Origin: a virus
DNA length: 47,963 nt
Reading direction: 5' to 3' (one strand)
IMG/VR virus record: IMGVR_UViG_3300043446_001867
Span: 1-47,963 of that record
Positions 978-41,011 of the stretch are shown in pieces. The notes under the pieces were generated by a model that saw only the letters and a program-made list of their open reading frames with translations, did not search any database and was not told the DNA's origin. The translations under genes and the position numbers were made by a program. Every line of letters starts with the position of its first letter. Positions within the stretch are counted from its first letter, which is position 1.

Positions 978-1499
978 TCATACGATGCGTGTAAACCATC
1001 TAGGAGCAGTATATCTTGTTCCTAAATCTATAACCTTTACTCCATGAACATAGTCTGGATTGTCTGGAAAACAAAGAAGATCTCCTGGCTTTGGTTTATA
1101 GGATATGTTATATTTTGGAAAATAAATATCTCCTCCGACATAGTCATCATTTAAGTAAACTAAGGTTGCTATGTCATTTGGTCTGTTAGAATCAAAATGT
1201 TCGTGCATTCCTTTTCCAGCAACAAATTTTGCTATATGTGTTTTTTCATGAAGGAAATCTTGAAATGGGCCATCGTAATTTTCTTTTACAAAATTATAAA
1301 CTTTAATTGCATACTCTTGCATTACATCCAGCAGTTCTGGATCTCTAGCCTTTATTTCGTTGTATGTATGAACAGTAAATTCTTGTTCATTATTCCCATA
1401 TTCTGGAAAATCATCTGTATATTTTTTTGCATAATCAGATATCCTTAAAGCAATATCTCTTGGCATAAATTCTTCTACATACTTTATTTTATCTATCAT
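978..1499 (-). CDS. 2OG-Fe(II) oxygenase, prolyl-4-hydroxylase-like
   Basis: This 173-aa protein has the double-stranded beta-helix iron-binding pattern: H101-x-D103, distal H152 and R162 ten residues later for 2-oxoglutarate. YLNDDYVGGDIYFPKY between them is typical of P4H-like enzymes. Such enzymes hydroxylate proline or other residues using Fe(II), O2 and 2-oxoglutarate. Its ATG overlaps the stop of the ribonucleotide reductase gene (ATGA), so the two are translationally coupled. It lies directly before a tail-protein gene, so a virion protein is one conceivable substrate. Family confident, substrate unknown. Confidence 0.88.
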   Translation of the reverse strand: MIDKIKYVEEFMPRDIALRISDYAKKYTDDFPEYGNNEQEFTVHTYNEIKARDPELLDVMQEYAIKVYNFVKENYDGPFQDFLHEKTHIAKFVAGKGMHEHFDSNRPNDIATLVYLNDDYVGGDIYFPKYNISYKPKPGDLLCFPDNPDYVHGVKVIDLGTRYTAPRWFTRIV

Positions 1500-3529
1500 G
1501 ATTTAATCCTTATCTCACAAGCATCAGTTGTGCAGTACATTTCTCCCTGTGCCTCCAAATTTTCTGCTCCATCGTAAATAGCGGACCAGTCTATCTTCTT
1601 TATTTGTCCTATATAACTATTATACTCCTCTTCAGTAATCTCTGTATATGGTTGTTGTGGATACACAGTATTACCCATAGGTAAAAATGATACCGCCTTT
1701 AACTGTCCTTCGTACATATGAAGCGCTGGCGCAATGTGCTTTGTTTCAGTTTCTTTGTCAAATGAAAGCGTTACAGACACGCCGTTATCAGACCAATATT
1801 TCTGAGCAGTAGCAGCAAGCGCAATCTTCTCAAATAACGTTACATCTTTTTCAGACCTTGAATGACCAGAATGTACTGGGAAATAAACGACAGTTGTATT
1901 CGCAGATACAAGGTCAGCCTCCATTTTATATCCAGCAGCCTTGAACAAATGAATCATTGGGTCGGTATTCCCAAAACGAATTGCTCTCAAGAAATAGTTT
2001 CCACCAGGCGCCCAGTGAACTCCAGGCGTTGCGCCAGAAAGAATTGATACAGACCCTGATGGTTTAACAGTTGTGACTCTAATGGAATCACGAACGCATA
2101 ACCATTCAGAATATTTATGATCATATCTACGTATAGTTTCATAGCCTTCGTCCATCCATTCACGCACAACAGGCAAACCAAATTTGTCTGAAAATGAAGC
2201 AATACCAGTTAGTGATGTTCCAATGCGACGATTACGCTGCATAATTCCATTTGTCTGTTGCCAGTGTGTTGGTATCAGCGTTACCGTCTTGCCATACAAA
2301 TATGCAAACTTTAATGTCCGCAAGAAATCTTCCTTAGACTCATGACGATTTAAATGTACTTCAACCAAGGTGCATAGTTCGTATGACTCCAAAGGTTGTT
2401 CTGCACAAGGATTAAAGCCCATGACTCTATAATCTTTTCCGTCAGCAGGATCTTTTAAACGCCCGTAATTTCTTGCCACATCTAACCATATAAAACCAGG
2501 TTCTCCGTTATTAGCAATAAGGTCTACATATTCTTCGTACTTTGTGCCTACCGTCGCAGAAACAGAATTGTTTGACATCCAGGCCCAACCTGGATTTTCT
2601 GGATCAAATGAATTTCTTTCTGGGAAAACCTCAGAATTCTTAAGATTCATAAAGTCTTCATCTTGAGCATTACCTAGAGCCAATGTTGCAGATCGTCTAA
2701 CATTTCCTGATACCACGCAGGTGCCAATGAGGTTAACGATATCTACTATTGCTCTTGAGTCAAGTGTTTCTCCTGCCCTACCGCCGATTACAGACCTTAT
2801 CTGCTTGTGTAACTGTATAAGTGGTGCAGGACCGCTTGCTGTGCCTCCAAACCCTTTAATAGGTGCTCCTAAAGGACGAATGAGGTCATAGTTAAATTCT
2901 TGTATGTACATATTAGGTTTTAAAAATGAGTTAATTAATAATCTAACAGATTCTACCCAGCCCTCACGAGTATCTGGGATTTCATAAACCTGTGGTGGTT
3001 CTGTAGGGTCATAAATAGGTAACTTTTTTTCTGCCCCGACAGTATCAAATCCTACACCTACACCCATCATAAGCGCATCCATAACCCAAGCAAATAATGT
3101 TCCTGGATCATTTCTGTCTATATCTTTTGTAGATACCATAGCACAATTTTGTAATGCTGCTGAGTTTTTCTTTTCCATTGTAAGTGCCGTGCCAAAAGAC
3201 CATAGGCCTCGCCCTGGTGGTGTCCACTTTAACTCAAACAAACGCTGATATGCTTCTTTTGCAGAAGCCTGTGCTTTATAGTCATTCCAAGGGAGTCTGT
3301 TTTCTTTGGCGTGATTCTTTTGGGCTGAATACATGCCCTCAATTACTCGACGACAAACCTCATACCATCTTTCTTTAGTTCCATCTTCCTTCATTCGAGA
3401 GTAGGTACGAATAAACGTAATCTCTCCTAGTGAATTACCACCAGCATCTGTAAATCCAAATGGTGGTTCTTTTGTTTTATACTCATTTATAAAATCTTCT
3501 GACAAGCGAAAACTAAAAAAATCTGACAC
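1496..3529 (-). CDS. nrdJ: Adenosylcobalamin-dependent ribonucleoside-triphosphate reductase (class II)
   Basis: This 677-aa enzyme reduces ribonucleotides to deoxyribonucleotides for phage DNA synthesis. The layout matches the monomeric Lactobacillus leichmannii-type RTPR. C129 in NCAMVS and C386 form the redox pair. C375 in NPCAEQPLE is the thiyl-radical cysteine, with E377 next to it; the 11-residue C375-C386 spacing equals that of the reference enzyme (C408/C419). The C-terminal CTTDAC pair (C666, C671) is the thioredoxin-reducible tail. The start is GTG at 3529 with AAGGAGA upstream. A TGGTATACT extended -10 lies about 35 bp before it. Activity would need host or imported vitamin B12. 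Confidence 0.96.
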   Translation of the reverse strand: MSDFFSFRLSEDFINEYKTKEPPFGFTDAGGNSLGEITFIRTYSRMKEDGTKERWYEVCRRVIEGMYSAQKNHAKENRLPWNDYKAQASAKEAYQRLFELKWTPPGRGLWSFGTALTMEKKNSAALQNCAMVSTKDIDRNDPGTLFAWVMDALMMGVGVGFDTVGAEKKLPIYDPTEPPQVYEIPDTREGWVESVRLLINSFLKPNMYIQEFNYDLIRPLGAPIKGFGGTASGPAPLIQLHKQIRSVIGGRAGETLDSRAIVDIVNLIGTCVVSGNVRRSATLALGNAQDEDFMNLKNSEVFPERNSFDPENPGWAWMSNNSVSATVGTKYEEYVDLIANNGEPGFIWLDVARNYGRLKDPADGKDYRVMGFNPCAEQPLESYELCTLVEVHLNRHESKEDFLRTLKFAYLYGKTVTLIPTHWQQTNGIMQRNRRIGTSLTGIASFSDKFGLPVVREWMDEGYETIRRYDHKYSEWLCVRDSIRVTTVKPSGSVSILSGATPGVHWAPGGNYFLRAIRFGNTDPMIHLFKAAGYKMEADLVSANTTVVYFPVHSGHSRSEKDVTLFEKIALAATAQKYWSDNGVSVTLSFDKETETKHIAPALHMYEGQLKAVSFLPMGNTVYPQQPYTEITEEEYNSYIGQIKKIDWSAIYDGAENLEAQGEMYCTTDACEIRIKS

Positions 3530-3617: not shown

Positions 3618-3746
3618 TTATTTAAAAGTTACTCTTGAATGATTTTGTGGAAAACATCTTAGACATATATTTAGTTTTGCACCAGTAACTGGGCATTCAG
3701 ATGTTTGCATGTTATGTCCTTTAAAAAAACAAATTATCTTTTTCAT
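3618..3746 (-). CDS. Cys-rich micro-protein (42 aa)
   Basis: ATG at 3746 overlaps the stop of the preceding oxygenase gene (ATGA), strong support for translation. The product begins MKKIICFFKGHNM and carries four cysteines: one at the N-terminus, one in ECPVTG, and a CLRC pair. The pattern recalls small DUF1660-like prophage proteins that probably bind zinc, but similarity is by eye only. It is the last gene of the minus-strand oxygenase operon before the nrdJ promoter. Confidence 0.7.
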   Translation of the reverse strand: MKKIICFFKGHNMQTSECPVTGAKLNICLRCFPQNHSRVTFK

Positions 3747-4420
3747 AATTTTGTCCATAACTCTGTTACTACGTGAGAATCTTTTGGAGCAATATCATAA
3801 GCAATTGTAATTCTTGGCTTGTCCTCATACCAATCATCTCTACCGTGTGGGTGTCCTGTTTCTGATACTATTGCTCTATTGTTTTTATTGTGATTTTCAA
3901 ATAACACTTGTTTATTTATTTTATAAAATGTTATAGATGGTTCAGCGTTAACACAATAATAACCATGAAAGATTGGTGCTCCTGTGCCCTCTGCATGATC
4001 ATGAAATGAATGGGCATTATTTATTGGACTAACTCCACCATTTACAGCCATTATTTTTTGTTTTTTTTCGTCCCAACTTCCATAAGTTTTATAATCTAAA
4101 TTATACCAGCCGTGAATCATAAAGTCCAGTTCTTCATAATTAAAATTATAATACTCACATGCTTCTTTAGTTAAATTAGATAAAGATATTTTTAAATTTT
4201 TAATTTCATTATTTTCAAAATTAAAAATATTATAATAGTTTCCTAATTGTGTTGTTGGTCCATTATCTTTGTTATACTTTGATAAAACATCTTCTGGAAT
4301 AGGTGCTAAAGAACCAGAAAGTAATTCCGATTGTTTTTCTACTAAATAGTCAAATAAAAAATCTAAATCATTATCAATAAATGATTCAAAAAATTTATGT
4401 GGTGGCTTCATTGCTATCAT
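3743..4420 (-). CDS. 2OG-Fe(II) oxygenase-like protein, tandem paralogue
   Basis: This 225-aa protein is a diverged duplicate of its upstream neighbour: both share KPHKFFE near the start, EACEYYN/D in the middle, then H-D-H plus APxFHGYY, and end with GHxH and PRITIAYDI. The H-x-H, distal His and Arg arrangement matches phage 2OG-oxygenase-like double-stranded beta-helix proteins. I chose ATG 4420 because it overlaps the upstream stop as ATGA; a TTG five codons earlier is open but unnecessary. Substrate unknown. Confidence 0.75.
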   Translation of the reverse strand: MIAMKPPHKFFESFIDNDLDFLFDYLVEKQSELLSGSLAPIPEDVLSKYNKDNGPTTQLGNYYNIFNFENNEIKNLKISLSNLTKEACEYYNFNYEELDFMIHGWYNLDYKTYGSWDEKKQKIMAVNGGVSPINNAHSFHDHAEGTGAPIFHGYYCVNAEPSITFYKINKQVLFENHNKNNRAIVSETGHPHGRDDWYEDKPRITIAYDIAPKDSHVVTELWTKL

Positions 4421-5076
4421 AACAATGGGATCCAATGCTGTTCGGCAGCATTTGCCCTAATTAAATATTCCAATGGAATAATGTCGTAAGCGATTGTTAT
4501 TCTTGGACCTTCCCAATCCCAATCTGCCATAGCATGCTGATGACCCATTTCAGAAACAATTAATTTATTATCAATATTATGATGATCTACCACTTCTCCA
4601 TACACATGATAATGTGTTGTAGAAGGCTCTGCTTTAACACTATAATACCCGTGAAAATTTGGTGCTCCTGGTTGACCATGATCATGCCAATCTAATTTGC
4701 CTTTACCCTTATGAGTTATATTAAACCATCCCTGAACCATAAAGTTTTGTGCATCAAAGTCAATATCATAATATTCACATGCCTCTTTTGTTGCATCTTT
4801 AACACCTTTAAAAACATTATATATTTCTTCACTATGAAATTGAAAAACATTGTACTCTCTCCATTTTACTGTGGAAGTACTTCCAGATTTTACCCAATAT
4901 TCGTGTCCTGCAGAACCCAAAGGAGTTACACCATCTATTTCGGCTCTTTCTATTTTTTCATATCTATCAGATAAAAAATTAGACAATTTATTAAGATCAT
5001 TATTTAAATGTCTTTCAAAAAATTTATGTGGCTTAGTTCCAAATTTTGCAGTTGGACTCATTCCTTGATTTTGCAT
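4417..5076 (-). CDS. 2OG-Fe(II) oxygenase-like protein
   Basis: 219 aa. Candidate metal ligands are H131-D-H133 (in WHDHG) and H179/H181 (in GHQH), followed by R192 in PRITIAYDI, as expected for a jelly-roll 2OG oxygenase of the HxH subtype. It pairs with the downstream paralogue through an ATGA overlap. A GAAGGG motif precedes the ATG. A TGGTATACT extended -10 and an inverted repeat (CTGTA/TACAG, 5094-5107) lie immediately upstream. Alternative start: Met 6. Confidence 0.76.
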   Translation of the reverse strand: MQNQGMSPTAKFGTKPHKFFERHLNNDLNKLSNFLSDRYEKIERAEIDGVTPLGSAGHEYWVKSGSTSTVKWREYNVFQFHSEEIYNVFKGVKDATKEACEYYDIDFDAQNFMVQGWFNITHKGKGKLDWHDHGQPGAPNFHGYYSVKAEPSTTHYHVYGEVVDHHNIDNKLIVSEMGHQHAMADWDWEGPRITIAYDIIPLEYLIRANAAEQHWIPLL

Positions 5077-5093
5077 TTTATTTTACCCTTCTA

Positions 5094-5114
5094 CTGTATT
5101 ACTACAGTATACCA
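5094..5114 (-). promoter_or_regulatory. Extended -10 with adjacent inverted repeat
   Basis: Minus strand TGGTATACT is followed directly by CTGTA-GTAA-TACAG. The repeat lies at the predicted transcription start and could be an operator or a 5' mRNA hairpin for the oxygenase pair. Confidence 0.45.
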
Positions 5115-5118
5115 TGTT

Positions 5119-6327
5119 TTAGCCCCAAGGAGCAAAGTTAAACGCTGGTGAGAAGCCGAACACGCTGAATGGTGAGAAGCCAAACACACCGAATGGTGAG
5201 AAGCCGAAGACACCGAATGGTGAGAAGCCGAAGACACCGAATGGTGAGAAGCCAAACACACCGAATGGTGAGAAGCCGAAGACCGAGAATGGTGCGAAGG
5301 AAAATACACCGAATGGTGAGAAGCCGAAGACCGAGAATGGTGCGAAGGAAAATACACCGAATGGTGAGAATCCGAAGACCGAGAATGGAGTAAATTGGAA
5401 TGTTGTAACGCTAGAAGATGCAGAAGAATAATTTCCAGCACCATTAGCATTTTCTGCACGAACCTGATAAGTTTGAGCAGTTCCACCTTCTTGATTTACA
5501 GAAACCGATGTTCCTGCTGTTGTTCCAGACTTTGAGTCCGAAGATGTCCAGGTATATTGACTAATAGCCTTTCCACCATTTGCTGGTGCAGACCAAGATA
5601 CGCTGTCTGTTGTAGTTCCAGCAACGTTAACTCCAGCAGAAGGCGTTGGAGATGATACTGTTGGTGCTGCTGGTGTATCTGGAACAGTTGTTACTGTAAC
5701 AGCACTAGAAGCAGAAGATGCTAATGAAGTACCATTTCCATTTGTAGCAGTGACTGTAAACGTTGGAGTTGCACCAGTAGCGTATCCTGTTGGAGCCAAT
5801 GGGGAAGTTGCTCCAGAAGCAGAATATCCTCCACCAGATACTGTATAACTTGTTATTGATTTTCCACCAGTAGCGTTGGCAGTAAATGCAACAGAAACAG
5901 ATCCATTGTTATAGGGTCTATTTGTTCCAACATCTGTTGCAGATGAAAGTGTTGGTGCTTGAGGAACTGTAGTAGCAGTTACTGAAGAAGATGTTGTTCC
6001 TGCAGAAGAGCCTACACTATTATTTGCTTTAATTGTAAATGTATATGCTGTATTAGATGCAAGTCCTTCAAATGTAGTGCTTGTTCCAGATACCGTTTTT
6101 GAATAAGTAGAAGGAGTAGTAGTAATGGTATAAGATGATGCTTCTGCTGATCCTGCTGGTAAAGACCATGCAAGACTTACAGATCCTCCAACACCAGAGG
6201 CTCCTGCCTCTGTTGATGCTGCTGAGGCAGCATATGGACGATTCGTACCAACGTCTGTTGCAGTGGTAATTGTTACATCATTAGGCCATGATTGCTGACC
6301 TGCTTTTCTTCCAAGTTTACCTGCCAT
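5119..6327 (-). CDS. Tail fibre: fibronectin-III-like domains plus aromatic octapeptide repeats
   Basis: 402 aa. Residues about 30-310 form three Fn3/Ig-like beta-sandwiches (for example YTFTIKANNSVG and YQVRAENANGAG), domains common on phage tails where they bind host surface glycans weakly. Residues 310-402 are ten copies of an octapeptide FGFSPFGV/FSFAPFSV, ending FNFAPWG. The same ending closes the PASTA/TSP1-like fibre protein at 13.2 kb. AAAGGAGT precedes the ATG. The repeat region is near-identical at DNA level, so copy number may vary. Role: distal fibre or adhesin, inferred. Confidence 0.8.
   Translation of the reverse strand: MAGKLGRKAGQQSWPNDVTITTATDVGTNRPYAASAASTEAGASGVGGSVSLAWSLPAGSAEASSYTITTTPSTYSKTVSGTSTTFEGLASNTAYTFTIKANNSVGSSAGTTSSSVTATTVPQAPTLSSATDVGTNRPYNNGSVSVAFTANATGGKSITSYTVSGGGYSASGATSPLAPTGYATGATPTFTVTATNGNGTSLASSASSAVTVTTVPDTPAAPTVSSPTPSAGVNVAGTTTDSVSWSAPANGGKAISQYTWTSSDSKSGTTAGTSVSVNQEGGTAQTYQVRAENANGAGNYSSASSSVTTFQFTPFSVFGFSPFGVFSFAPFSVFGFSPFGVFSFAPFSVFGFSPFGVFGFSPFGVFGFSPFGVFGFSPFGVFGFSPFSVFGFSPAFNFAPWG
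5122..5400 (-). repeat. Tandem 24-bp coding repeats
   Basis: About ten near-identical 24-bp units encode the octapeptide (F-x-F-x-P-F-x-V). Two subtypes (FGFSPFGV and FSFAPFSV) alternate at the N-terminal end, then one subtype runs homogeneously, suggesting recent unequal exchange or slippage. Confidence 0.9.
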
Positions 6328-6358
6328 TACTATCTACTCCTTTTATTTGTAATTTCTA

Positions 6359-8677
6359 TTACGCCGTAGCGAGGTCGCCTATCAAGACCCAAGTATCTGT
6401 TGCTCTCTTAAATAAGGTTGCTGCAGACCATTGTGCTCTTAAATATGCACCAGGTGTACCATTTACTGTTACTCCTGCTGCTCCGACAATTCTTACTCCA
6501 CCAGTATTTGTACGAAGAACATCAATAGATGTTCCTACTGGATATGCAACTGAGGAGTTTGCTGGAATTGTAATATCTACAGCAGTTCCGCCAGTGTGTG
6601 AAACTTCAATCATAGAGTCTCTTTCAGAAAGTGCAGATAGTGTATATGCTGCGGACTTTTGAATAATTGGCGTTCTTGAAGGAACGCCTTCTTTAGACTG
6701 TGTGCCGTCTGAAAATACGATACCTGCTGCTGGAAGAGTTACGGTTCCAGTGAAGGTTGGTGATGCAAGATCTGCTTTAGCAGCAAATGATGCTGAAAGT
6801 CCAGAAATCTTGGATTGATCAATTGCTGCAGACGCATTAATATCTGCATTTACGATAGTTCCATCTGCAATCATTGCTGATGTAACTCCACCAGTTGCAA
6901 TTTCAATTGTTCCTGGTGTTGATTCTGTAAGACCTGAACCTGCTGTTATTGCTTTAGCAGCATTAAATGCTGCGTAGGTAACATTTGTTGTTCCAATTGT
7001 AATTGCTGATGTGTTAGAGCAAACGTATCCGTATCCTGAGTTAACAGTACCTTCAAGTACTAGAGTGAAATCTCCACCCTTTAACTCTCCGTCTGGAGTA
7101 TTGTCTGCATCTGTTGCTCTTGTCCATGAACCTGAAGCAACTACATAAATACCATTTTGTGTTTGAGTTGTTTGATCCTTAACAAGAACACGATCACCAA
7201 CAGATAAAGAAACTCCATCAATTGTTTGTGTTCCGCTTAATGTAATATTTGCTGTTGTAGCAACACGAACTGGCTGATGGAAGTTAATTCCTGCAGTTAC
7301 ATTATCTACATATGCCTTAGTTGCTGCATGTAAATCTGCTGATGGTGCGCCCGAAAGTGTCAAGGCTCCTGTCATTGTTCCGCCAGCAAGTGCTAACTTA
7401 GAATCTAATTGTGTTTGAATTGCTGAGGTTACACCGTCAACATATCCAAGTTCAGTTGCTGAAACATTTCCAATTGATGTTGTTGATGGAAGAGTAACAG
7501 TTCCTGTAAAGGTAGGTCCTGCAAGAGGAGCCTTAAGATCAAGTGCTGTTTGTGTAGCAGTTGAAACTGGCTTATTAGCATCGGAAGTATTGTCTGCATT
7601 ACCAAGTCCAACCATTGCTTTTGTAACTCCAGATACTGTGCCAGTAAATGTTGGAGAAGCAAGCGGTGCCTTTAGATCAAGTGCAGACTGTGTTGCAGTT
7701 GATATTGGCTTATTTGCATCAGATGTATTATCAACATTTCCAAGTCCTACGGAAGACTTTGTCAATGCTGCAACTGCTGTCGAAACTGCTCCATCTGCAT
7801 ATGTTTTTGTTGCAAGTGCTGCTGTATCAGCAATACCATGTACGCTTGTTGTTGCTGTAGTATGAGCAGTTAGATTTGCTGAAGCAGAAGATCCTACTGC
7901 TGATGCTGCATTGTCTGCATATGTTTTTGTTGCAAGTGCTGCTGTATCTGTAATTCCATGAACACCAGTTGTGTCAGAATTATGTGTACCAATTTCTGTG
8001 CCTATTGCATTATTTCTATCTGTTACTTCTTGAGCAATAGCATCATCAATAGCCTGATTTCTATCAGAAACTTCTGCTGCAATCTCATTTCCTATTGCAT
8101 TATTTCTATCTGTTACTTCTTGAGCAATAGCATCATCAATAGCCACATCTCTAGCAGAGACTTCTAGGGCAATAGCATCATTAATTGCAGTATTGCGCTC
8201 TGTTACTTCTAATGCAATAGCATCATCAATTGCAGTGTTACGGTTTGTTACTTCTTGTCCAATAGCATCAGAAATTGCATCGTTTCTATTATTTACTTCT
8301 AATGAAATTGCGTCATTTACCGTAGTTGTTAGGTCTGTTTGATATACAAGATTTGCTGTATTAGAAATTCCATGAACACCTGTTGTCTCATTATTATGAT
8401 CTTCAATATATTGAGTTAACTCTGCATCTAATGCCACGCCTTGTGGGATTAATGCTATATCGATCATACCTTGTGCGTTTAGGGTTACTATTCCACCTAC
8501 GCCATCAAGGCCATCTAAATTTTTAAAATAGGAGAGGGCAGACCATGCCGAAGACCCGTTTCCAATTTTGAACTGGTTGGTATCGGTTTCAAATCCGATT
8601 TCTCCTGCTGCTAAAGTTGGATTCGCTGCAGTCCATTGTGCTGCGGTTCCTCTGCGTTGTTGCATTCTTGTTGCCAT
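6359..8677 (-). CDS. Long tail fibre protein with coiled-coil and fibre repeats
   Basis: 772 aa. The N-terminus (MQQRRGTAAQWTAANP, then AAGEIGFETDTNQFKIG) is the fibre-attachment motif found in many phage tail fibres. Residues about 126-230 are 14-residue repeats (AIDDAIAQEVTDRN), a likely trimeric coiled coil. Repeats of LKAPLASPTFTGTV and VGLGNVDNTSDANKP follow, both classic trimeric fibre shaft motifs. The C-terminal 100 residues end TDTWVLIGDL and are paralogous to the C-terminus of the gene at 14.3 kb, a probable shared tip module. AAGGAGAG precedes the ATG. Confidence 0.9.
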   Translation of the reverse strand: MATRMQQRRGTAAQWTAANPTLAAGEIGFETDTNQFKIGNGSSAWSALSYFKNLDGLDGVGGIVTLNAQGMIDIALIPQGVALDAELTQYIEDHNNETTGVHGISNTANLVYQTDLTTTVNDAISLEVNNRNDAISDAIGQEVTNRNTAIDDAIALEVTERNTAINDAIALEVSARDVAIDDAIAQEVTDRNNAIGNEIAAEVSDRNQAIDDAIAQEVTDRNNAIGTEIGTHNSDTTGVHGITDTAALATKTYADNAASAVGSSASANLTAHTTATTSVHGIADTAALATKTYADGAVSTAVAALTKSSVGLGNVDNTSDANKPISTATQSALDLKAPLASPTFTGTVSGVTKAMVGLGNADNTSDANKPVSTATQTALDLKAPLAGPTFTGTVTLPSTTSIGNVSATELGYVDGVTSAIQTQLDSKLALAGGTMTGALTLSGAPSADLHAATKAYVDNVTAGINFHQPVRVATTANITLSGTQTIDGVSLSVGDRVLVKDQTTQTQNGIYVVASGSWTRATDADNTPDGELKGGDFTLVLEGTVNSGYGYVCSNTSAITIGTTNVTYAAFNAAKAITAGSGLTESTPGTIEIATGGVTSAMIADGTIVNADINASAAIDQSKISGLSASFAAKADLASPTFTGTVTLPAAGIVFSDGTQSKEGVPSRTPIIQKSAAYTLSALSERDSMIEVSHTGGTAVDITIPANSSVAYPVGTSIDVLRTNTGGVRIVGAAGVTVNGTPGAYLRAQWSAATLFKRATDTWVLIGDLATA

Positions 8678-8740
8678 ATTTTATTCTCTCCTTATGGTAT
8701 TTCTACCAGTTTATTTCTGTGCTAATTATAACATCAATTT

Positions 8741-9196
8741 TTAGTTGAAATTATCAATAGCACTTCCTCCATCAAATACAAGAGTCCACTGATTTGTAGT
8801 TGGACCTCCAGCATCTAAACCTGCTCCTTGTGGGCTATTAAAACTTCCGCCTTCATAAAATTGAGATACTATAAAACCAGTACCATCGATTGCTGTATCG
8901 TGAATATGTTGTGGAAGACTCTGAGTATCGTCTATTGTTGCGATTGTTAGCCAAGAACCATTATAATGAACATTAACTCTTTCTGTTAATGTATCAAACC
9001 ATAGATCACCATTATCTGGTGTAGAGGGAGCGGTACCTCCAACTGTCATGCCACCTATTACTGAATCAACATATGATTTAGTAGCAGCATGGGTAGATAA
9101 TGTAGGTTCTCCTACAACTACCGCTCCGCCAAACTCACCGCCACCAGTGACGATAAGTCCATTTTTAACCTTGAAGTCTTTGTTGACTGTTGCCAA
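8741..9196 (-). CDS. Short tail fibre/structural protein
   Basis: About 151 aa. I chose TTG at 9196 because it gives MATVNKDFKVKNGLIV, identical to the start of the next fibre gene, and has GAGGGAG at good spacing; a GTG three codons earlier is possible. LSTHAATKSYVD is a standard fibre motif, followed by GDLWFDT and YNGSWLTIAT, typical of tip domains. An extended -10 (TGTTATAAT) lies between this gene and the long fibre gene downstream. Confidence 0.78.
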   Translation of the reverse strand: MATVNKDFKVKNGLIVTGGGEFGGAVVVGEPTLSTHAATKSYVDSVIGGMTVGGTAPSTPDNGDLWFDTLTERVNVHYNGSWLTIATIDDTQSLPQHIHDTAIDGTGFIVSQFYEGGSFNSPQGAGLDAGGPTTNQWTLVFDGGSAIDNFN

Positions 9197-9225
9197 GATT
9201 ACCACTCCCTCTTTTTATTTATTTT

Positions 9226-10839
9226 TTATGCTAAAAGTGTTCCGATAACAGCAACTGTTGAGTTGTTGTTGGCGGTAGTGACACGAAGACGAACATCATT
9301 GCCAGAAACATCTGCTGAAACTGATCCAAGAGAACCGTTTGTTCCAACCATTGCGTATTCTGTAATAGCGACATTATCTGAAGTGTCAAGTGTCAAGATA
9401 ACCTTGGATACATCTGTATGAGATCCATTAGCAATCTTAACAAGGAATTCAGCAGAACGATAGTCTGCCTTCAACCATGAAATTGCGTTGTTTGTGCTTG
9501 CTGTAGCGATAGAAGCGGTTGCTGCTACCTGCTTTGCAATTGAATTAAGTTCAACTGCTGTAAAGTTAGGAACAACTGCTTCAAGAGCATCTACTGCACG
9601 AGCATTTGTGAAGTAAAGATGGTTTGTTCCTTCTGCAAGGTCATCTGTGTCAGAATCTGCAACACCGTTTTCTGCGGTAATTGTAAGATTATTTGATCCA
9701 TCTTTTGTAATTACAATGTTAGTCTTTGTTGCATTTGCAAGAAGCGTTGCTGCTTCTGCCTTTGCACGAGCATCAGTGTAATAAAGGTTTGTACCTTCTG
9801 CAACATTTGATGTTGTAAGGTTATCAATACGAGTATTTGTTGCATCATCAAGACCATCAGCATATAACTGTGCTGCTGTCTGTGCTGCTGCTGCAGAACC
9901 TGCTGAATCATAATTGATTGCAAGTCCATCAGCATAATCTTCTGCTGCAGACTGAGCATTGTTTGCTGCAGTTGTAGCAAATGATTGTGCATTTGACTGT
10001 GCTGTTGAAGCATAGCCTTGTGCTGCTGTATCTACTGCTGAAATTTCTCCGTCTACATAAGTAGTATCAGCCTTTGTTGCAACCAAGTTAGCAACATCTG
10101 TTGCATAGTTTGGATTATCAGCAATTGCTGCTGCTAACTCATTAAGAGTATTAAGTAATTCTGGTGCTGAATCTACAAGCGCTGAAACTTTACCATCTGT
10201 GTATGTATTTGCATCTGCAAGAGCATCTGCTGCTGCACCAAGTGCATCATATGTGCCAGCGAGATTAAGTGCTGTAATAGCATTGTCTGTGTAAGTATTT
10301 GCGTCTGTTTCTGCGTCTGCAATCTGTCCTTCAAGAGTTGTTACTGCTGAAGAAAGAGCATTTGATGCTGTAAGTTCTGCTGCTGCTTGAGCCGCATTTG
10401 CCTTTGTAGTTGCATCTGATGATGCTGCTGAAATTGCTTCAGACTTTGCTGTTGCAACCTCTGCATCTGTTGCAAAAGATCCATTTAATGTTGTAGAAAT
10501 TTGTACATTTTGTGTACCATTAAAATTAACTTGACCAGTTACATCACCAGTAAGTTCAATTGTGCGAGAAGTCTCAAGTGCTGTTGCTGTATCTGCATTA
10601 CCAGTTACATCACCAACGAGGTCTGCTGTTATTACTCCTGCAGCAAAGTTGCCTGAGCCATCACGCTTTACAACCTTGTTTGCTTCGTTTGCTGAGGTGG
10701 CTGTACCACCAATTAAATTGACGATATAGTTTTGATCGTCTGTCTTCTTTGTAAGAATGTCATAGTTGTTAACTGTGGCTGTTGTGCCTTCAACGATGAG
10801 ACCATTCTTTACTTTAAAGTCTTTGTTTACTGTTGCCAT
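9226..10839 (-). CDS. Alanine-rich tail fibre protein
   Basis: 537 aa. It opens with MATVNKDFKVKNGLIV, shared with the neighbouring short fibre. A VVKRDGSGNFAAG segment follows, then roughly 250 residues of Ala/Asp/Thr-rich helix (YTDGKVSAL, QAAAELTASNAL) likely to form a trimeric coiled coil. NLYYTDARAKAE and HLYFTNARAVDAL are recognisable cyanophage/T4-like fibre motifs. The last 100 residues form a module shared with the gene at 10.9-11.3 kb. AAGGAG precedes the ATG. Confidence 0.87.
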   Translation of the reverse strand: MATVNKDFKVKNGLIVEGTTATVNNYDILTKKTDDQNYIVNLIGGTATSANEANKVVKRDGSGNFAAGVITADLVGDVTGNADTATALETSRTIELTGDVTGQVNFNGTQNVQISTTLNGSFATDAEVATAKSEAISAASSDATTKANAAQAAAELTASNALSSAVTTLEGQIADAETDANTYTDNAITALNLAGTYDALGAAADALADANTYTDGKVSALVDSAPELLNTLNELAAAIADNPNYATDVANLVATKADTTYVDGEISAVDTAAQGYASTAQSNAQSFATTAANNAQSAAEDYADGLAINYDSAGSAAAAQTAAQLYADGLDDATNTRIDNLTTSNVAEGTNLYYTDARAKAEAATLLANATKTNIVITKDGSNNLTITAENGVADSDTDDLAEGTNHLYFTNARAVDALEAVVPNFTAVELNSIAKQVAATASIATASTNNAISWLKADYRSAEFLVKIANGSHTDVSKVILTLDTSDNVAITEYAMVGTNGSLGSVSADVSGNDVRLRVTTANNNSTVAVIGTLLA

Positions 10840-10855
10840 TTATTTATCTCCTTGT

Positions 10856-11302
10856 TTATGCCTTAAGTCCAATTCGTGCATAACGAACTGTGACTGGCTT
10901 AATCGCAGGATCTGGAGTAACCGTTAAGGATACTGTATTTCCAACCCTGGAGACGCTAACGGTGCCAATATTCCCATCATTGTCTATTGTGCCATACTCA
11001 GAGACATTCACATTTGTGCCGTCTACCAAGATGGTCAACTCTGTTGCATAGAATTTATTATCTCCCGCAGTTACTTTTGCGATAGAAACAATATACTTAA
11101 CCATACGCCATTCTGTGGCGTCAAAGTTATCAATTACTGTGGCATTTTCAATACCCGTAATTGTATTTTCATTATTACCCATTGAACCAAGGTCGGTTGA
11201 ACGGGCTGAGGCTGAATCAATTAAATCCTCATAATCTTGTTGCGTGGGGCGATCCCCAGTCTCAAACTTTGTCTTTAGATTAGGTATTGATATTTTTGCC
11301 AT
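10856..11302 (-). CDS. Small structural protein with fibre tip module
   Basis: 148 aa. Residues about 60-148 (ATEWRMVKYIVSI, then VSEYGTIDNDGNIGT and VTPDPAIKPVTVRYARI) parallel the C-terminal module of the fibre gene downstream, and resemble virion proteins of T4-like cyanophages. The ATG sits exactly 6 nt after TATAAT and also has AAAGGAG further up, so both leaderless and SD-led translation are possible. Probably a tail-tip or baseplate component. Confidence 0.72.
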   Translation of the reverse strand: MAKISIPNLKTKFETGDRPTQQDYEDLIDSASARSTDLGSMGNNENTITGIENATVIDNFDATEWRMVKYIVSIAKVTAGDNKFYATELTILVDGTNVNVSEYGTIDNDGNIGTVSVSRVGNTVSLTVTPDPAIKPVTVRYARIGLKA

Positions 11303-11325
11303 GATGGTATTATAACTCCTTTTTA

Positions 11326-11574
11326 TTATAGAATATAATTACTATATCCAATAATTTGAAGCGGTATTGGGGGTGGATTATTTTTTGAATACCCAAACAC
11401 GCTAACATTGATAAACTGTACACGAAAAGGTAAAACTTCTTCAATTCTTGCTTTTGGTTGTATATGATCTATTCTGATATATCTTTTATCAAGTTCTTTA
11501 ATTTGTGCATGTGCTTTTTTATGAGTTGTATTAAAAACTTCTTGATTTACTGGGATTAAATTATAATTGCTCAT
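11326..11574 (-). CDS. Hypothetical structural-operon protein (82 aa)
   Basis: The start overlaps the stop of the gene upstream (ATGA), which supports translation. I do not recognise the family. The sequence is mixed polar and beta-prone (VLPFRVQFINVSVFGYS) with no signal peptide or membrane segment. Position between a beta-sandwich baseplate-like protein and a fibre tip protein suggests a virion role. Confidence 0.65.
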   Translation of the reverse strand: MSNYNLIPVNQEVFNTTHKKAHAQIKELDKRYIRIDHIQPKARIEEVLPFRVQFINVSVFGYSKNNPPPIPLQIIGYSNYIL

Positions 11575-11960
11575 TGCGTAACATCTTCAAGGATAACCAT
11601 TGATCCTTTGGCTACCGTCCAGACTCTTCCCTCAGACAAAAGTTCTGTGAGTTGAATGTCAAAGATATCTCCTGTCTCTAAAAGTTCTGATTGTGAAGAT
11701 GTTAAGTTAACTGTAAATGTTCCTTCTGAGTCTTGAAATTCAATTGGTTCTGGTGATAATGAAACTATAACTTGACTAGTAGATGGACGATAAATGTCCA
11801 TTGCAATTTCCCAATCATTTAAATATAGTGGCTCTCTTGCATCGTTTGTTACATAAACTCTAAATGCTGCAGAGTCTCCTCTAACTACCGTCCAACGAAC
11901 TTCTGGTGGAGCAGAACCTAAAGCATATGAGTCTGTGGGTTGATTTCGGAAGGTAGCCAT
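11571..11960 (-). CDS. LtfC-like beta-sandwich baseplate protein
   Basis: 129 aa. The core VRWTVVRGDSAAFRVYV is the same pattern as IQWRVIRGDTGTLRVEF in the gene ending at 18378 and YKGDTYQFRVYP in the gene at 16.5-16.9 kb; all three end with a WTxxxGxxxVxxDVT-type strand. This is the small Ig-like fold found beside actinophage fibres (LtfC/Gp6-type), inferred by eye. TGATATAAT lies exactly 6 nt before the ATG, so the mRNA is probably leaderless. Confidence 0.7.
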   Translation of the reverse strand: MATFRNQPTDSYALGSAPPEVRWTVVRGDSAAFRVYVTNDAREPLYLNDWEIAMDIYRPSTSQVIVSLSPEPIEFQDSEGTFTVNLTSSQSELLETGDIFDIQLTELLSEGRVWTVAKGSMVILEDVTQ

Positions 11961-11978
11961 ATGTCGATTATATCATAT

Positions 11979-12536
11979 TTAGGCTAATCCAGCCTTTAAT
12001 GCTCCCCATGTTCCATTACCTTTTGCTTGAACAACTATAACTCCATTACTCGTTGCTGCTAAAGCAACTACACCAATTGCTCCACCATTTACAGTAGTAG
12101 ATAGTCCACCACCAGAAGTTGGATATAAAAGATCTCCTGCTTGAAAAGATGATGTATTTATATTTTGTCCAGAAAGGACTCCAGAAACAACAACTTCTCC
12201 AGTTCCTCCATTTGCATTTATTTGTTCTTTTGTTAATCCTAAAAATGGATAATTATCAGATAACTCTGAGGTAAAAGGTTTAATAACTGTTCTTCCATTA
12301 TTTTGACCTCTTTCTTGATTTAAATCAGGATCAAACCATGTTGCAGCATAAACTGGTTTTCCAGCAGAAATATTATTTGATGTTTTATTAATAACCTTTA
12401 TTCTAACATTAGATGCGTCTAAAGATTGTAATGCTGTATCAACAGAATCTGCTAACTTTTTAATATCATTATGAACATTTACAGAATCTGTTGCTTCTGG
12501 AAATTTTAAATTATAATTATCTGTTGTATCTGCCAT
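11979..12536 (-). CDS. Structural/decoration-like protein
   Basis: 185 aa. The first 45 residues (NYNLKFPEATDSVNVHNDIK) resemble a fibre-attachment helix. The remainder is a beta-rich domain with ISAGKPVYA, GEVVVSGVLSGQ, FQAGDLLYP and GVVALAATSNGVIVVQAKG, the pattern of small phage decoration or fibre tip domains. A TGATATAAT box lies 8 nt before the ATG and there is no obvious Shine-Dalgarno. It is the gene nearest the divergent muramidase. Confidence 0.68.
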   Translation of the reverse strand: MADTTDNYNLKFPEATDSVNVHNDIKKLADSVDTALQSLDASNVRIKVINKTSNNISAGKPVYAATWFDPDLNQERGQNNGRTVIKPFTSELSDNYPFLGLTKEQINANGGTGEVVVSGVLSGQNINTSSFQAGDLLYPTSGGGLSTTVNGGAIGVVALAATSNGVIVVQAKGNGTWGALKAGLA

Positions 12537-12557
12537 AGACAGTAATTATATCATTAT

Positions 12558-12587
12558 TTGACTACCTTGACTAAATTGTGTTATACT
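12558..12587 (+). promoter_or_regulatory. Sigma70-type promoter for the muramidase gene
   Basis: TTGACT (12558-12563), 18-nt spacer, TATACT (12582-12587). Predicted start is near 12594, immediately before the 5' hairpin. It fires opposite to the surrounding tail operon. Confidence 0.7.
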
Positions 12588-12598
12588 TAGAAGTAATA

Positions 12599-12620
12599 TG
12601 ACACCCTTAAAAAGGTGTCA
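12599..12620 (+). promoter_or_regulatory. 5' UTR hairpin before the muramidase gene
   Basis: Perfect 7-bp stem TGACACC/GGTGTCA with an 8-nt A-rich loop, at the very 5' end of the predicted mRNA and 10 nt before the AAGGAGG ribosome-binding site. Without a U-tract it looks more like an mRNA-stabilising hairpin than a terminator. Confidence 0.6.
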
Positions 12621-12642
12621 TTCCGTTTCTAAGGAGGAAACT

Positions 12643-13203
12643 ATGATTAACTTTATGAATAATAATAGGAATATCATTGGAACACTCAGCATATTGGTGA
12701 TGTTTTCCGTTTGGTCAAACATTGCCAATGCTTCTGAAAACCGATTAGATAGTAAAACTATCACGCTTGAAGAGACTATTGAGGCCACGGAAGTGGCCAA
12801 AAGTGTTTCTAAGGCTAAAGAAGATCAGTTAGAAAAATATAAAAATGCTACATCTCTATCTGATAAAGATCTTAAAAATCTATTAAAATTAGTAGGATTT
12901 GAAGGTCAAAATCTTAAGGAGGCTTGGGCTATTGCTAAGAGAGAAAGTAATGGTCGACCATTTGCATTCAATGGAAATACTGAAACTGGAGACAGTTCAT
13001 ATGGTATTTTTCAAATAAACATGCTTGGAATGCTTGGTCCAGATCGTCGTAAAAAGTATGATTTAGATCACAATGCTGACTTATTTAATCCAGTTGTAAA
13101 TGCACAAATTGCCTATAAAATGACAAATGGCGGAGAAGACTGGAGTTCTTGGAAAGGATTAACTCCAAAAGCAAAAGAATGGTTAGGCAAATTTCCTAAT
13201 TAA
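12643..13203 (+). CDS. Exported lytic transglycosylase/muramidase
   Basis: 186 aa from ATG 12643, chosen over an upstream ATG because AAGGAGG is ideally placed. Residues 1-30 form a signal peptide or N-terminal anchor (hydrophobic 10-28, ANA then SE at the likely cleavage site). Residues 75-186 are a soluble lytic transglycosylase-like fold: catalytic E101 in AKRESNGRP, then SSYGIFQIN at 118-126 and NAQIAYKM at 153-160. It cleaves peptidoglycan glycan strands. It sits alone on the plus strand within the tail operon, with its own promoter, which suits a lysis gene; secretion via the signal would bypass a holin. A virion-associated role is less likely. Confidence 0.85.
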   Translation: MINFMNNNRNIIGTLSILVMFSVWSNIANASENRLDSKTITLEETIEATEVAKSVSKAKEDQLEKYKNATSLSDKDLKNLLKLVGFEGQNLKEAWAIAKRESNGRPFAFNGNTETGDSSYGIFQINMLGMLGPDRRKKYDLDHNADLFNPVVNAQIAYKMTNGGEDWSSWKGLTPKAKEWLGKFPN

Positions 13204-13208
13204 ATAGT

Positions 13209-14261
13209 TTAGCCCCAGGGTGCAAAGTTAAAACTAGCCTCTGGGGTAAAACTAAAAGTGGCCTCTGGTGTAAAACTAAAGACACCAAATGCTGGAGTAA
13301 AACTAAAGACACCAAATGCTGGTGTAAAACTAAAGACACTAAATGCTGGTGTAAAACTAAAGACACTAAATGCTGGTGTAAAACTAAAGACGGCAAATGT
13401 TGGCATAAAGTTAAACGATGGCTCTGGTGTAAAACTAAATACGCTAAATGCTGGAGTAAATGAAAACACAGAAAATGCCTGTGGAGTAAAACTAAACACT
13501 CCGAACGTTGGCATAAAGTTAAATGATGGTTCTGGTGTAAAACTAAAGACTGCAAATGCTGGAGTAAAACTAAACACTCCGAACGTTGGCATAAAGTTAA
13601 ATGATGGTTCTGGTGTAAATGTAAATACGCTAAATCCTGGAGTAAAACTAAAGACAGCAAATGTTGGCATAAAGTTGAAGGCTGGAGTGCCACAAACCTC
13701 AACATTTACATCGTCCATAGTTTCTGTTTGAGTTTCAGTTCCAGCAATACAGTTTCCTGATACTAATGTATATATTGTTCTTGTTCTTGTTCTTGTATAT
13801 GTTCTATGTTGTCTTCTATATCCATCTGCTTCACATTCACCCCATGGACCCCATGGGCCTATGTCCCAAGCAGACCACTCTGACCATGCTCCTGGCTGAG
13901 GACACTCTATCGGTCCTGGTGTAAAAGAAAATACTCCAAATGGAGAAAAACCAAAAACAGCAAATGGAGAAAAACCAAAAACACCAAATGGAGAAAAACC
14001 AAAAACACCAAATGGAGAAAAAGAAAATGAGTGAAGTTTATAGTTAACAGTACTTTCGTAATCTAATAATGTATTTGCTGCAACATCTTGTGATTTAACT
14101 AATCCAGTTAAAGATTCATTATCTTGAACCTCTTCTATTTCTGTTCCATAATTAAATCCTGCATTCTGCAATGATTGTCTTGCTTGATTTTTTGTTAATC
14201 CAAGTAGGTTGGGTACTGATCCCATACCTTTTGCTAAAAATGTCCATAATGAATTTAGCAT
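13209..14261 (-). CDS. Fibre protein: PASTA + TSP1-like + aromatic octapeptide repeats
   Basis: 350 aa mosaic. Residues 16-78 fit a PASTA domain (VPNLLGLTKNQARQSLQNAG, then a terminal beta strand), a fold known to bind peptidoglycan or muropeptides. Residues 79-116 are FGFSPFGV octapeptides like those at 5.1 kb. Residues 117-190 (WSEWSAW, GPWGPWGEC, TRTRTRT, four Cys) resemble a thrombospondin type-1 repeat. Residues 193-350 are about 18 further units of the form AFxVFSFTP interspersed with FNFMPTF, ending FNFAPWG. Role: adhesin for an actinobacterial wall, inferred from PASTA and location. Confidence 0.78.
   Translation of the reverse strand: MLNSLWTFLAKGMGSVPNLLGLTKNQARQSLQNAGFNYGTEIEEVQDNESLTGLVKSQDVAANTLLDYESTVNYKLHSFSFSPFGVFGFSPFGVFGFSPFAVFGFSPFGVFSFTPGPIECPQPGAWSEWSAWDIGPWGPWGECEADGYRRQHRTYTRTRTRTIYTLVSGNCIAGTETQTETMDDVNVEVCGTPAFNFMPTFAVFSFTPGFSVFTFTPEPSFNFMPTFGVFSFTPAFAVFSFTPEPSFNFMPTFGVFSFTPQAFSVFSFTPAFSVFSFTPEPSFNFMPTFAVFSFTPAFSVFSFTPAFSVFSFTPAFGVFSFTPAFGVFSFTPEATFSFTPEASFNFAPWG
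13212..13685 (-). repeat. Coding tandem repeats, FSFTP type
   Basis: 24-27-bp units encode xAFxVFSFTP, with an FNFMPTF variant recurring about every third or fourth unit, implying duplication of larger blocks as well as single units. Confidence 0.88.
13914..14027 (-). repeat. Coding tandem repeats, FGFSP type
   Basis: Four to five 24-bp units encode FGFSPFGV-like octapeptides, nearly the same peptide unit as at 5122-5400 but with different codons, so the two loci share protein sequence more than DNA sequence. Confidence 0.85.
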
Positions 14262-14268: not shown

Positions 14269-14901
14269 CTACGCCGTCAAATCGCCAAGTAAGACCCAAG
14301 TATCGGTAGCATACTTAATTAAGGTTGCACCAGAATACCTTGCAGCAATTTTTTTATTTGAATTTTTACTATTAATTATAACTGCTACTGTTGCTCCACT
14401 AAAAGTAACATTGCCTGAACCAACTCTAATTATGTCTATTCTTTGACCAATTTCAAATGGCACAGATGAATTTAAAGGAACTGTAATTGTTGTATCTGAG
14501 CCAGAATTAATTGTTACTGTTTTTCCAGCATCTCCTAAAACAAGTGTATAGTTAGCAGTTTTTTCATTAAAAACAACACTATCCAATAACCCAACCCATT
14601 TGGTTCCATTATAATATTGAACCTGACTTATATCTGTACCACTATTAGTTTGCTCTACAAAACATACGGTACCTTCTGTTGGTGAAGTTATTGCAGCATC
14701 TCTAGCATTTGGATTTTGAAATATGTTAACTCCACCTTTTGCCTTAATAACATCATTAACTGTTACTGTAGAACCAAAAGTATGAGCCTGTGTCCATGTA
14801 TATGGAACATTGGTATTTGCAACACCAGCAATAGCGTACCATAAATTACTTCCTTCATCATACATATATGCTACTTTGCTTTGCGACGCTAGATTTGCCA
14901 T
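14269..14901 (-). CDS. Fibre protein with shared C-terminal tip module
   Basis: 210 aa from ATG 14901, chosen because GGAGG is well placed and the upstream stop is 1 nt away; a longer reading would overlap the neighbour. Residues 5-45 (YMYDEGSNLWYAIAG) begin like fibre head domains. The C-terminal 100 residues (YTLVLGDAGKTVTI, ARYSGATLIKYATDTWVLLG) parallel the end of the 772-aa fibre. This shared tip suggests paralogous receptor-binding or trimerisation modules. Confidence 0.78.
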   Translation of the reverse strand: MANLASQSKVAYMYDEGSNLWYAIAGVANTNVPYTWTQAHTFGSTVTVNDVIKAKGGVNIFQNPNARDAAITSPTEGTVCFVEQTNSGTDISQVQYYNGTKWVGLLDSVVFNEKTANYTLVLGDAGKTVTINSGSDTTITVPLNSSVPFEIGQRIDIIRVGSGNVTFSGATVAVIINSKNSNKKIAARYSGATLIKYATDTWVLLGDLTA

Positions 14902-14902
14902 A

Positions 14903-15952
14903 TTAGATTTCCTCCACAATAAAAGTATCTGATGTTTCGCCAAATCTTTGTGTTATGACATTTGCAAGGTATCCAGAGGGAGTAATATTAATTAATCTAT
15001 AAGTAATAATATCTCCAGTTGTAGCATTATGAGTGTCTAGCCATTCAAAATGCGAACTTACTAATTCTTTAGATATTAACCCAACATTTATAGTTGAGTA
15101 TGATCCAGAATTAATCTTTCTCTGTAATCCAATAAATGCTTCAATATTTGTATCTGTTGTTGGTCTACAGACACCAGTAAATGTAATTTTTGTTTTTGTT
15201 GACGATGCACTCTTTGTTATTGCTAACTCAATATCATCAGAATCAATTGTCTTTAATGTTCCATTTTCATTAACACCATTTAATTGTATTCCAGTTAAAC
15301 TTGTATCTGAGTAATTTCCAAAATACATAGAAGATATATTTTTATTTGTTTCATAGTCTAAATCAGTCCAAGAAATTCCTAAAGGTGCACTCGAATCTGC
15401 AGTTAAAACTTTTCCAGTGCTTCCTACTGGTAAAATTTGAGTAATTCCTTGATCAAAACCAACAATTAAATCACCTTTGGCATCAGTATATGTTCCTACT
15501 TTAACAAAATCAGAAGAATCATAGACATATATATCTTTACTATCAGAGTCTTTATCTATCCAGACTATTCCGTTTGTTAGGTTGGTTGTTGGTTCTTCAT
15601 TTTGATAAAGAGCAATTCCATAAGTTGACTGAACTGCTGCGCCAGTAGAGTCTGATGCCATAACAATATATCCGTCAGTTGGAGATGAAATTGCTTGTAT
15701 TTGATTTATAGTTAAATAATCAGAACCAATTCCTCGATTATCTACTCTATCTACATCTTCTCTTAAATCTTGTAAATGTCTGGCTAACCCATCATTGTTT
15801 GCTAAATCTGTTTTTTGATCACCAATCGGGGCTGTAGTATCAAAATTATAGTCTCCATACAGGAATAACTTAAGTGCCGCTTGTATATCAGCCTTATCTT
15901 CATATCCTGGTTGCTTTACATTCCATATGCCACCAATGTCTTCTGCTGCCAC
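14903..15952 (-). CDS. Tail fibre/structural protein (349 aa)
   Basis: The start is GTG at 15952 with AAGGGGG upstream. TGGTATAAT lies further up. The N-terminal 65 residues (IGGIWNVKQPGYEDKADIQ, DLREDVDRVDNR) look like a helical attachment segment. The middle carries GDLIVGFDQGITQILPVGSTG and GKVLTADSSAPLGISW, a well-known fibre shaft repeat. The C-terminal half is a beta-rich head domain without a family I recognise. Confidence 0.75.
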   Translation of the reverse strand: MAAEDIGGIWNVKQPGYEDKADIQAALKLFLYGDYNFDTTAPIGDQKTDLANNDGLARHLQDLREDVDRVDNRGIGSDYLTINQIQAISSPTDGYIVMASDSTGAAVQSTYGIALYQNEEPTTNLTNGIVWIDKDSDSKDIYVYDSSDFVKVGTYTDAKGDLIVGFDQGITQILPVGSTGKVLTADSSAPLGISWTDLDYETNKNISSMYFGNYSDTSLTGIQLNGVNENGTLKTIDSDDIELAITKSASSTKTKITFTGVCRPTTDTNIEAFIGLQRKINSGSYSTINVGLISKELVSSHFEWLDTHNATTGDIITYRLINITPSGYLANVITQRFGETSDTFIVEEI

Positions 15953-39949: not shown

Positions 39950-40023
39950 GGAGCAGTAGCCAAGTTGGTCAAGGCCCCGAACTCATAATTCGGCTATCGT
40001 AGGTTCAAGTCCTACCTGCTCTA
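39950..40023 (+). tRNA. tRNA-Met (CAT)
   Basis: Acceptor GGAGCAG/CTGCTCT (terminal G-T), anticodon stem CCGAA/TTCGG with loop CTCATAA, T arm GTAGG-TTCAAGT-CCTAC. CCA not encoded. CAT could also be a lysidine-modified Ile2 isoacceptor; elongator Met is the default. Confidence 0.9.
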
Positions 40024-40027
40024 CTTA

Positions 40028-40103
40028 GCCCTTGTAGCCCAGTGGTAGAGGCACACGACTTAAAATCGTGACAGCGTTGGTTCGAATCCAACCAGGGGCA
40101 CCA
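40028..40103 (+). tRNA. tRNA-Leu (TAA) with short variable loop
   Basis: Acceptor GCCCTTG/CAGGGGC, anticodon stem CACGA/TCGTG with loop CTTAAAA, so anticodon TAA, T arm GTTGG-TTCGAAT-CCAAC, encoded CCA. The variable region is about 5 nt, whereas bacterial Leu tRNAs normally have a long variable arm, so charging identity is uncertain. Confidence 0.85.
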
Positions 40104-40104
40104 A

Positions 40105-40177
40105 ACCCCTGTAACTCAGTGGATAGAGTAGCAGACTTCTAATCTGTTTGTCGTTGGTTCAAATCCAATCAGGGGTG
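40105..40177 (+). tRNA. tRNA-Arg (TCT)
   Basis: Acceptor ACCCCTG/CAGGGGT, anticodon stem CAGA/TCTG with loop CTTCTAA, T arm GTTGG-TTCAAAT-CCAAT. Reads AGA, a codon frequent in these AT-rich genes. CCA not encoded. Confidence 0.92.
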
Positions 40178-40193
40178 CTACAATTAAATACTT

Positions 40194-40269
40194 TGGTCTG
40201 TAGTTCAGTTGGTAGAACACTCGACTGTTAATCGAGATGTCGCAGGATCGAGACCTGCCAGACCAGCCA
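40194..40269 (+). tRNA. tRNA-Asn (GTT)
   Basis: Acceptor TGGTCTG/CAGACCA, anticodon stem CTCGA/TCGAG with loop CTGTTAA, T arm GCAGG-ATCGAGA-CCTGC, encoded CCA. Confidence 0.93.
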
Positions 40270-40276
40270 AAACAAA

Positions 40277-40900: not shown

Positions 40901-40924
40901 ATTGATATTATACCTTAAACATGG

Positions 40925-41010: not shown

Positions 41011-41011
41011 C

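Follow-up and report, generated by a model that had tools for sequence, protein, structure and literature searches.

Phenylalanine-rich arrays that end a pair of predicted phage tail-fibre proteins, and their Hint-ended relatives

Two array-bearing genes in a fibre cluster

The window, i.e. the whole stretch of 47,963 nucleotides of viral DNA that was analysed, derives from an uncultured aquatic phage. It contains two genes, P0001 and P0002, which are predicted to encode tail-fibre proteins and lie within a cluster of fibre genes that also has an Mtd_N fibre and matches to tail-fibre PHROGs. The features of this region are as follows:

1496-3529, minus: class II (B12-dependent) ribonucleotide reductase
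5119..6327, minus: P0001, ORF of 402 aa; short N-terminal segment, then three FN3-like domains, then a C-terminal aromatic array
5122..5400, minus: array of P0001, residues 310-402 (TRF and translation)
5122..5142, minus: FNFAPWG, C-terminal end of P0001 (translation)
6359..8677, minus: neighbouring fibre gene, 772 aa, Mtd_N head, tail-fibre PHROGs
13209..14261, minus: P0002, ORF of 350 aa; PASTA, array 1, Cys/Trp-rich insert, array 2
13212..13679, minus: array 2 of P0002, residues 195-350
13212..13232, minus: FNFAPWG, C-terminal end of P0002, common to P0001 (translation)
13680..13916, minus: Cys/Trp-rich insert of P0002, residues 116-194, non-repeat, WSEWSAW..C..RTRTRTRT..C
13917..14027, minus: array 1 of P0002, residues 79-115, four octads and FSFTP
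14043..14216, minus: PASTA domain of P0002, residues 16-73, Pfam PF03793
14269..15952, minus: two fibre-like genes upstream of P0002

The scaffold of P0001 matched Pfam fn3 (E = 3.2e-10, 40.5 bits against a cut-off of 25) and PHROG 6977, a minor tail protein (E = 3.6e-5). AF2 gave pLDDT mostly above 85 across residues 10-310, with high confidence for the three FN3-like domains. The P0001 array contains 12 FxFxP motifs and no charged residues, and its octad consists of a pentad FxFxP and a triad F(G/S)V. The original prediction of about ten F-x-F-x-P-F-x-V units was accurate, as a strict count gave exactly 10.

P0002 has a PASTA domain (E = 3.8e-10, 40 bits against a cut-off of 23.2) followed by the repeat stretch at 13212-14027 (minus strand, residues 79-350), for which about twenty octapeptide units had been proposed. 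This number stands for the FxFxP core (23 occurrences, most of them in nine-residue units) but not for the octapeptide, as there are only four strict octads and 11 nonads (FxFxPxFxV), and the insert interrupts the stretch. Array 2 combines FNFMP/FSFTP pentads and F(A/S/G)V triads with spacers of 1-3 residues. The insert resembles thrombospondin-1 by eye, with sequence support that is not significant (in a phmmer search of the PDB, E = 0.28 for thrombospondin 1 and 0.4 for properdin). Among near-identical genomes, P0002 differs in length by about one repeat unit (350 aa in the window, 359 aa in L075). Three ORFs that are frameshifted or antisense over the arrays (13258-13731 plus, 13196-13705 minus and 5091-5486 minus) were taken as by-products of the repeats. 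Two different proteins of the tail-fibre cluster, one FN3-based and the other PASTA-based, share the repeat, and both translations end in FNFAPWG, as had been claimed. The same end was found in the P0001 relatives L003, L005 and L008.

Both window arrays were confirmed as parts of real genes, neither chance products nor assembly artefacts. For one and the same octapeptide, the codons of P0001 and P0002 differ at 6-7 of 24 bases, and copies within one gene vary mainly at synonymous sites, with pN/pS among copies of 0.38 for the P0001 octads, 0.30 for the P0002 nonads and 0.5 for the four P0002 octads. Contigs from other metagenomes carry the same genes, with an identity to the window of 99.93% over 12.3 kb for L001 and of 97.5-99.3% across the aligning parts for L002. 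An assembly artefact, a danger raised in the original prediction, was rejected because the arrays recur in independent metagenomes with synonymous divergence.

Comparison of the P0001 array with that of L003 (all 93 residues aligned) revealed 27 synonymous changes and one nonsynonymous change, and the corresponding counts were 43:6 against L005 and 35:1 against L008. In the FN3 part, the counts were 99:48 (L003), 131:155 (L005) and 122:166 (L008). For these three relatives, pN/pS is about 0.01-0.05 in the array and 0.19-0.52 in the FN3 part. Other FxFxP array pairs gave 28:0 (L022/L027) and 31:0 (L030/L033, in which total lengths differ and the repeat alignment is partly free). Four comparisons (window/L003, window/L008, L022/L027 and L030/L033) thus show arrays with hardly any nonsynonymous change. 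Several other pairs, including that of P0002, showed pN/pS of 0.14-0.36, and strict conservation is not universal. Because synonymous changes far outnumber nonsynonymous ones in the array comparisons, the arrays are under selection at the protein level, and in some lineages this selection is stronger than that on the folded domains.

Relatives and composition of the arrays

Relatives were gathered with P0001, P0002 and L050 as queries, which found 74, 9 and 64 viral stretches, respectively, and with a DNA pattern for FGFxPFGxFGF, which was found in 117 viral stretches. Merging of proteins with identical ends left 142 distinct viral array proteins, the window's two included, and the family is thus widespread. 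Their scaffolds are FN3 like that of P0001 (115), PASTA like that of P0002 (16) or others (11), the latter comprising at least three further types.

No family in Pfam, PHROGs or NCBIfam covered the arrays, which agrees with the earlier statement that no phage domain with this repeat was known, and a search against the PDB gave no significant array match. The Pfam Collagen model matched only (FGA)n relatives (24.9 and 21.9 bits, under the cut-off of 27.2) and neither window array. A cellular origin was rejected. No relative of P0001 was found in 84,980 genomes; an FGFxP DNA pattern hit nine contigs, and the FN3-array architecture was present only in L273, which is 3.2 kb long and belongs to the bin of a Chitinophagaceae MAG. 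Against 50,697 known phage records, P0001, L050, L022 and L041 gave no match and P0002 gave one weak match (32% identity).

The arrays are composed of triads F-(G/S/A)-(V/A) and pentads F-x-F-x-P, with variants such as (FGA)n, FFxPP and YSFTP; they can be described as triplets of F, a small and a hydrophobic residue (FGF, FGV, FGA) with S/T-P inserted after FxF. Unit length varies within and between homologues, being 3 (FGA), 5 (FGFTP), 6 (FFSPPG), 8 (FGFSPFGV) or 9 (FSFTPAFGV) residues. Pooled arrays consist of 30% F, 17.5% P and 13% G, with 0.1% K and 0% H, and charged residues are very rare among the approximately 12,000 residues of all arrays. FG-repeat nucleoporins of eukaryotes also have uncharged, Phe-rich, low-complexity repeats with short units, although with much longer spacers; no homology is claimed.

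The regular amyloid-like or beta-solenoid spike that had been envisaged was not borne out. In the AF2 monomer of P0001, residues 314-399 have pLDDT below 50 and no strands, and a constant solenoid rung is disfavoured because unit length varies from 3 to 9 residues. The array may instead be an ordered fibrous shaft, in which three chains would place their Phe side chains in a triple-stranded beta-spiral-like core. Several pairs are strictly conserved at the residue level, as an ordered fibrous structure would give, the F-small-hydrophobic triplets are regular, and the genes lie in a fibre cluster; the (FGA)n variants have Gly at each third residue and the sub-threshold Collagen match. However, the monomer model lacks secondary structure, different unit lengths are mixed within single proteins and Pro recurs every 5-9 residues. 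The strict conservation leaves some weight to the ordered shaft, which we regard as doubtful.

A membrane-inserted tip was not supported either. The maximum 19-residue mean hydropathy of the window arrays is 1.42-1.45, below the transmembrane level (1.6 or more), which 3.5% of all arrays reach.

Array length is highly variable among relatives, and in some PASTA homologues the array slot is filled by (VTP)n, (TP)n or (INT)n, suggesting that a plain spacer can do in this slot. Together with the disorder predicted for the P0001 array by AF2 (monomer), these features would fit a passive spacer of incidental composition. Such a spacer is unlikely in view of the selection described above, which can exceed that on FN3, and of the scarcity of charged residues. 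Moreover, there is nothing to space in Hint-less proteins, where the array itself is the C-terminus.

The Hint domain and the exchange of fibre ends

Two features were absent from the original prediction: a Hint domain follows the array directly in most relatives, and the whole end is swapped between scaffolds. Of the 142 array proteins, 93 have a C-terminal Hint and 49 do not. In 32 of the 39 Hint-less proteins with a complete C-terminus, at most 11 residues follow the array. The distance from the last array motif to Hint residue 1 is usually 2-7 residues (median 4). A Hint profile built from 20 domains matched the gp41-1 intein (E = 1.5e-8) and the BIL domain 2lwy (E = 1.8e-8) in the PDB. 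The AF2 model of the relatives' Hint had a pLDDT of 90, and its Foldseek matches included BIL2 and BIL (E about 1e-7), the RecA intein and the hedgehog C-domain.

Cys or Ser occupies Hint residue 1 in 88 of the 93 domains (Cys in 41, Cys upstream of an insertion in 6, Ser in 41), and the five domains without a recognisable end motif were left unclassed. Residue 1 is coupled to the terminal residue, with Ser1-Asp in 41 of 41 and Cys1-Asn in 46 of 47. The C-terminal extension is 0-52 residues long, and the +1 residue is mostly not Cys, Ser or Thr. BIL domains, as defined in PMC7664689, mostly cleave, and inteins that end in Asp have been described (Amitai et al. 2004, as cited in PMC4031507). 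The coupling, the short extension and the few +1 nucleophiles are thus features pointing to a self-cleaving Hint of BIL type. Block B reads SxxH in 35 of the 41 Ser-class domains and TxxH in the six with displaced Cys. Many Cys-class domains have SxxQ or SxxE, and since Gln or Glu replaces the expected block B His, activity may be reduced in these members. The pN/pS of the post-array region is 0.10 in L022/L027 and L030/L033, 0.11 in L039/L045, 0.17 in L041/L048 and 0.22 in L056/L059; it is relaxed in L015/L016 (0.65) and L012/L013 (1.47, with only two synonymous changes).

The relatives' domain resembles the Hint superfamily (BIL, hedgehog autoprocessing domains and inteins) in its fold, in Cys/Ser1, in the [ST]xxH of many members, in the HN/YN or Asp at its end and in the general lack of a +1 nucleophile. 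It differs in following an aromatic array at the terminus of a phage fibre and in the coupled Ser1-Asp and Cys1-Asn classes. The window proteins themselves are Hint-less, and no Hint was detected in the six frames of the window or over the whole length of two relatives in the 122-124 kb range, G001 (123 kb) and G002 (122 kb). Supply of a Hint in trans was rejected on the basis of these two genomes.

Tailspikes and tail fibres may carry C-terminal intramolecular chaperones (Peptidase_S74 and relatives), terminal fibre domains that are removed by self-cleavage. If the array were an ordered shaft, the Hint would merely be a folding cap like these autocleaved chaperones. The likeness lies in a terminal phage-fibre domain predicted to self-cleave, whereas fold and chemistry are unrelated, and no Peptidase_S74 match was found in the scanned proteins. 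Terminal Hints also occur in collagen-like proteins of cultured phages, namely a putative tail protein of Alcaligenes phage Afa-NA1 and the virion structural protein gp111 of Erwinia phage pEa_SNUABM_3, which are annotated only as such:

L308:4032-5462 and L309:4014-5456: Hint-ended collagen-like proteins of cultured Alcaligenes and Erwinia phages

These share with our relatives a tail protein with terminal Hint, TxxH and a terminal LVHN, but have a collagen-like shaft and no aromatic array. Two proteins of uncultured Caudovirales in BFVD (A0A6J5MFV5 and A0A6J5NY54, 'Fibronectin type III' and 'PASTA_pknB') have the same scaffold names and the Hint fold; their architecture is given by database annotation only, with no description in the open-licence PMC literature searched.

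Some PASTA proteins showed further variation. L284, L285, L287, L300 and L301 have simple repeats such as (VTP)n, (TP)n or (INT)n in low-complexity slots between Cys-rich beads, and a Hint closes each of them except L287. In L180, L196, L202, L233 and L282, the PASTA gene is directly followed by a stand-alone gene of about 120-217 aa that is weakly similar to the Hint profile and lacks Cys1 (example sequence PIGTKVYLEDKTLKNIEDLQFGDKVLSI). These genes may encode degenerate or accessory Hint proteins.

Where one contig allowed a pair of array- or Hint-bearing proteins with different scaffolds to be read, both mostly have the same end:

FNFAPWG: window, G001 and G002
FSVFGFR: L154
FSPPFR: G031
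VKSIGADTL-Hint: G010
ARGPGYYSLGPKTK-Hint: G026/G036
W(V/S)VGPCVHEDTL-Hint: G028

The end state (none, Cys or Ser) agrees in 13 of 16 lineages, compared with 5.3 expected by shuffling (p about 8e-5, a rough value, the lineages being near-identical genomes merged by hand). The exceptions are G013, G020 and G023. The Hint tree places the two Hints of a genome as sisters for G010, G026, G028 and L199; two more lineages group by lineage, and no such grouping is seen for G022/G032/L245 and G035. At least 33 changes of end state are needed on a quick FN3 tree with 113 members. Because the two fibres of one genome usually have the same end, the fibre end behaves as a module exchanged between scaffolds.

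Possible role of the fibre end and genome context

As the Hint directly follows the repeat in most family members, the repeat is probably the working tip of the fibre. We give an even chance to a specific form of this idea, in which a fibre scaffold carries a hydrophobic, adhesive or self-associating array tip that is exposed by Hint self-cleavage or, in the window, by a stop codon. We infer each of its elements, namely location in the virion, Hint cleavage, a free array end and stickiness or adhesion. P0001 and P0002 would be surface proteins of the phage fibre, composed of FN3 or PASTA beads and a C-terminal tip module, the nearly uncharged aromatic array. In most relatives, the terminal BIL-type Hint would cut itself off at Cys1 or Ser1, so that the mature fibre would terminate in the array. 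In the Hint-less window phage, the stop after FNFAPWG would yield the same product. The exposed array may act as a hydrophobic sticky tail, which either packs fibre chains together or makes weak multivalent contact with the host surface.

Alternatively, the Hint might join the array end covalently to an acceptor, which could be a lipid, a host amine or a second fibre, in the way that hedgehog is joined to cholesterol, with the Hint-less window phage managing without such transfer. The hedgehog C-domain is among the structural matches, and a Cys or Ser nucleophile starts nearly all Hints (88/93). Nevertheless, the C-terminal extensions are too short for a sterol-recognition region, no acceptor is known and array-only phages exist, making covalent transfer highly improbable. 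Also very unlikely is a hedgehog-like processing in which the Hint would activate the end of the aromatic fibre tail and ligate it to an acceptor, either another fibre or the host envelope, and array-only phages such as that of the window would be secondarily simplified and use hydrophobic contact alone.

If the exposed sticky tip is real, terminal Hints in phage structural genes would gain a use, and the virus particle would offer a directly testable case of an uncharged, sticky aromatic sequence on which selection acts. Cultured phages with Hint-ended tail proteins make cleavage testable now. No description of the array-Hint architecture was found in the open-licence PMC literature searched, and to this literature the fibre-end module is new: highly conserved aromatic low-complexity repeats, in most cases immediately before an intein-like domain, repeatedly exchanged between scaffolds.

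The closest ribonucleotide reductases to that of the window belong to Actinomycetia phage DSL-LC01 (63% identity) and to mycobacteriophage Gaia (61%), which weakly suggests an actinobacterial host. DSL-LC01 itself has no comparable array and no Hint. A T4-like capsid protein gp23 was matched in none of 20 records, and the control was likewise without a match anywhere, which makes the result uninformative. The PASTA gene of L282 has neighbours of the same kind as the pair at 14269..15952 (..PGYxDxADIQAAL.., ..YDEGxNxW..GDLTA). At 3743-5076 (minus), P0001 and the reductase gene are separated by a pair of adjacent genes that look alike (230 and 219 aa) and have His-rich motifs resembling 2OG-Fe(II) oxygenases, with no family match. 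The window also encodes a cluster of six tRNA genes at 39950-41084 (Met, Leu, Arg, Asn, Glu and Thr) and a further tRNA-Asp at 32327.
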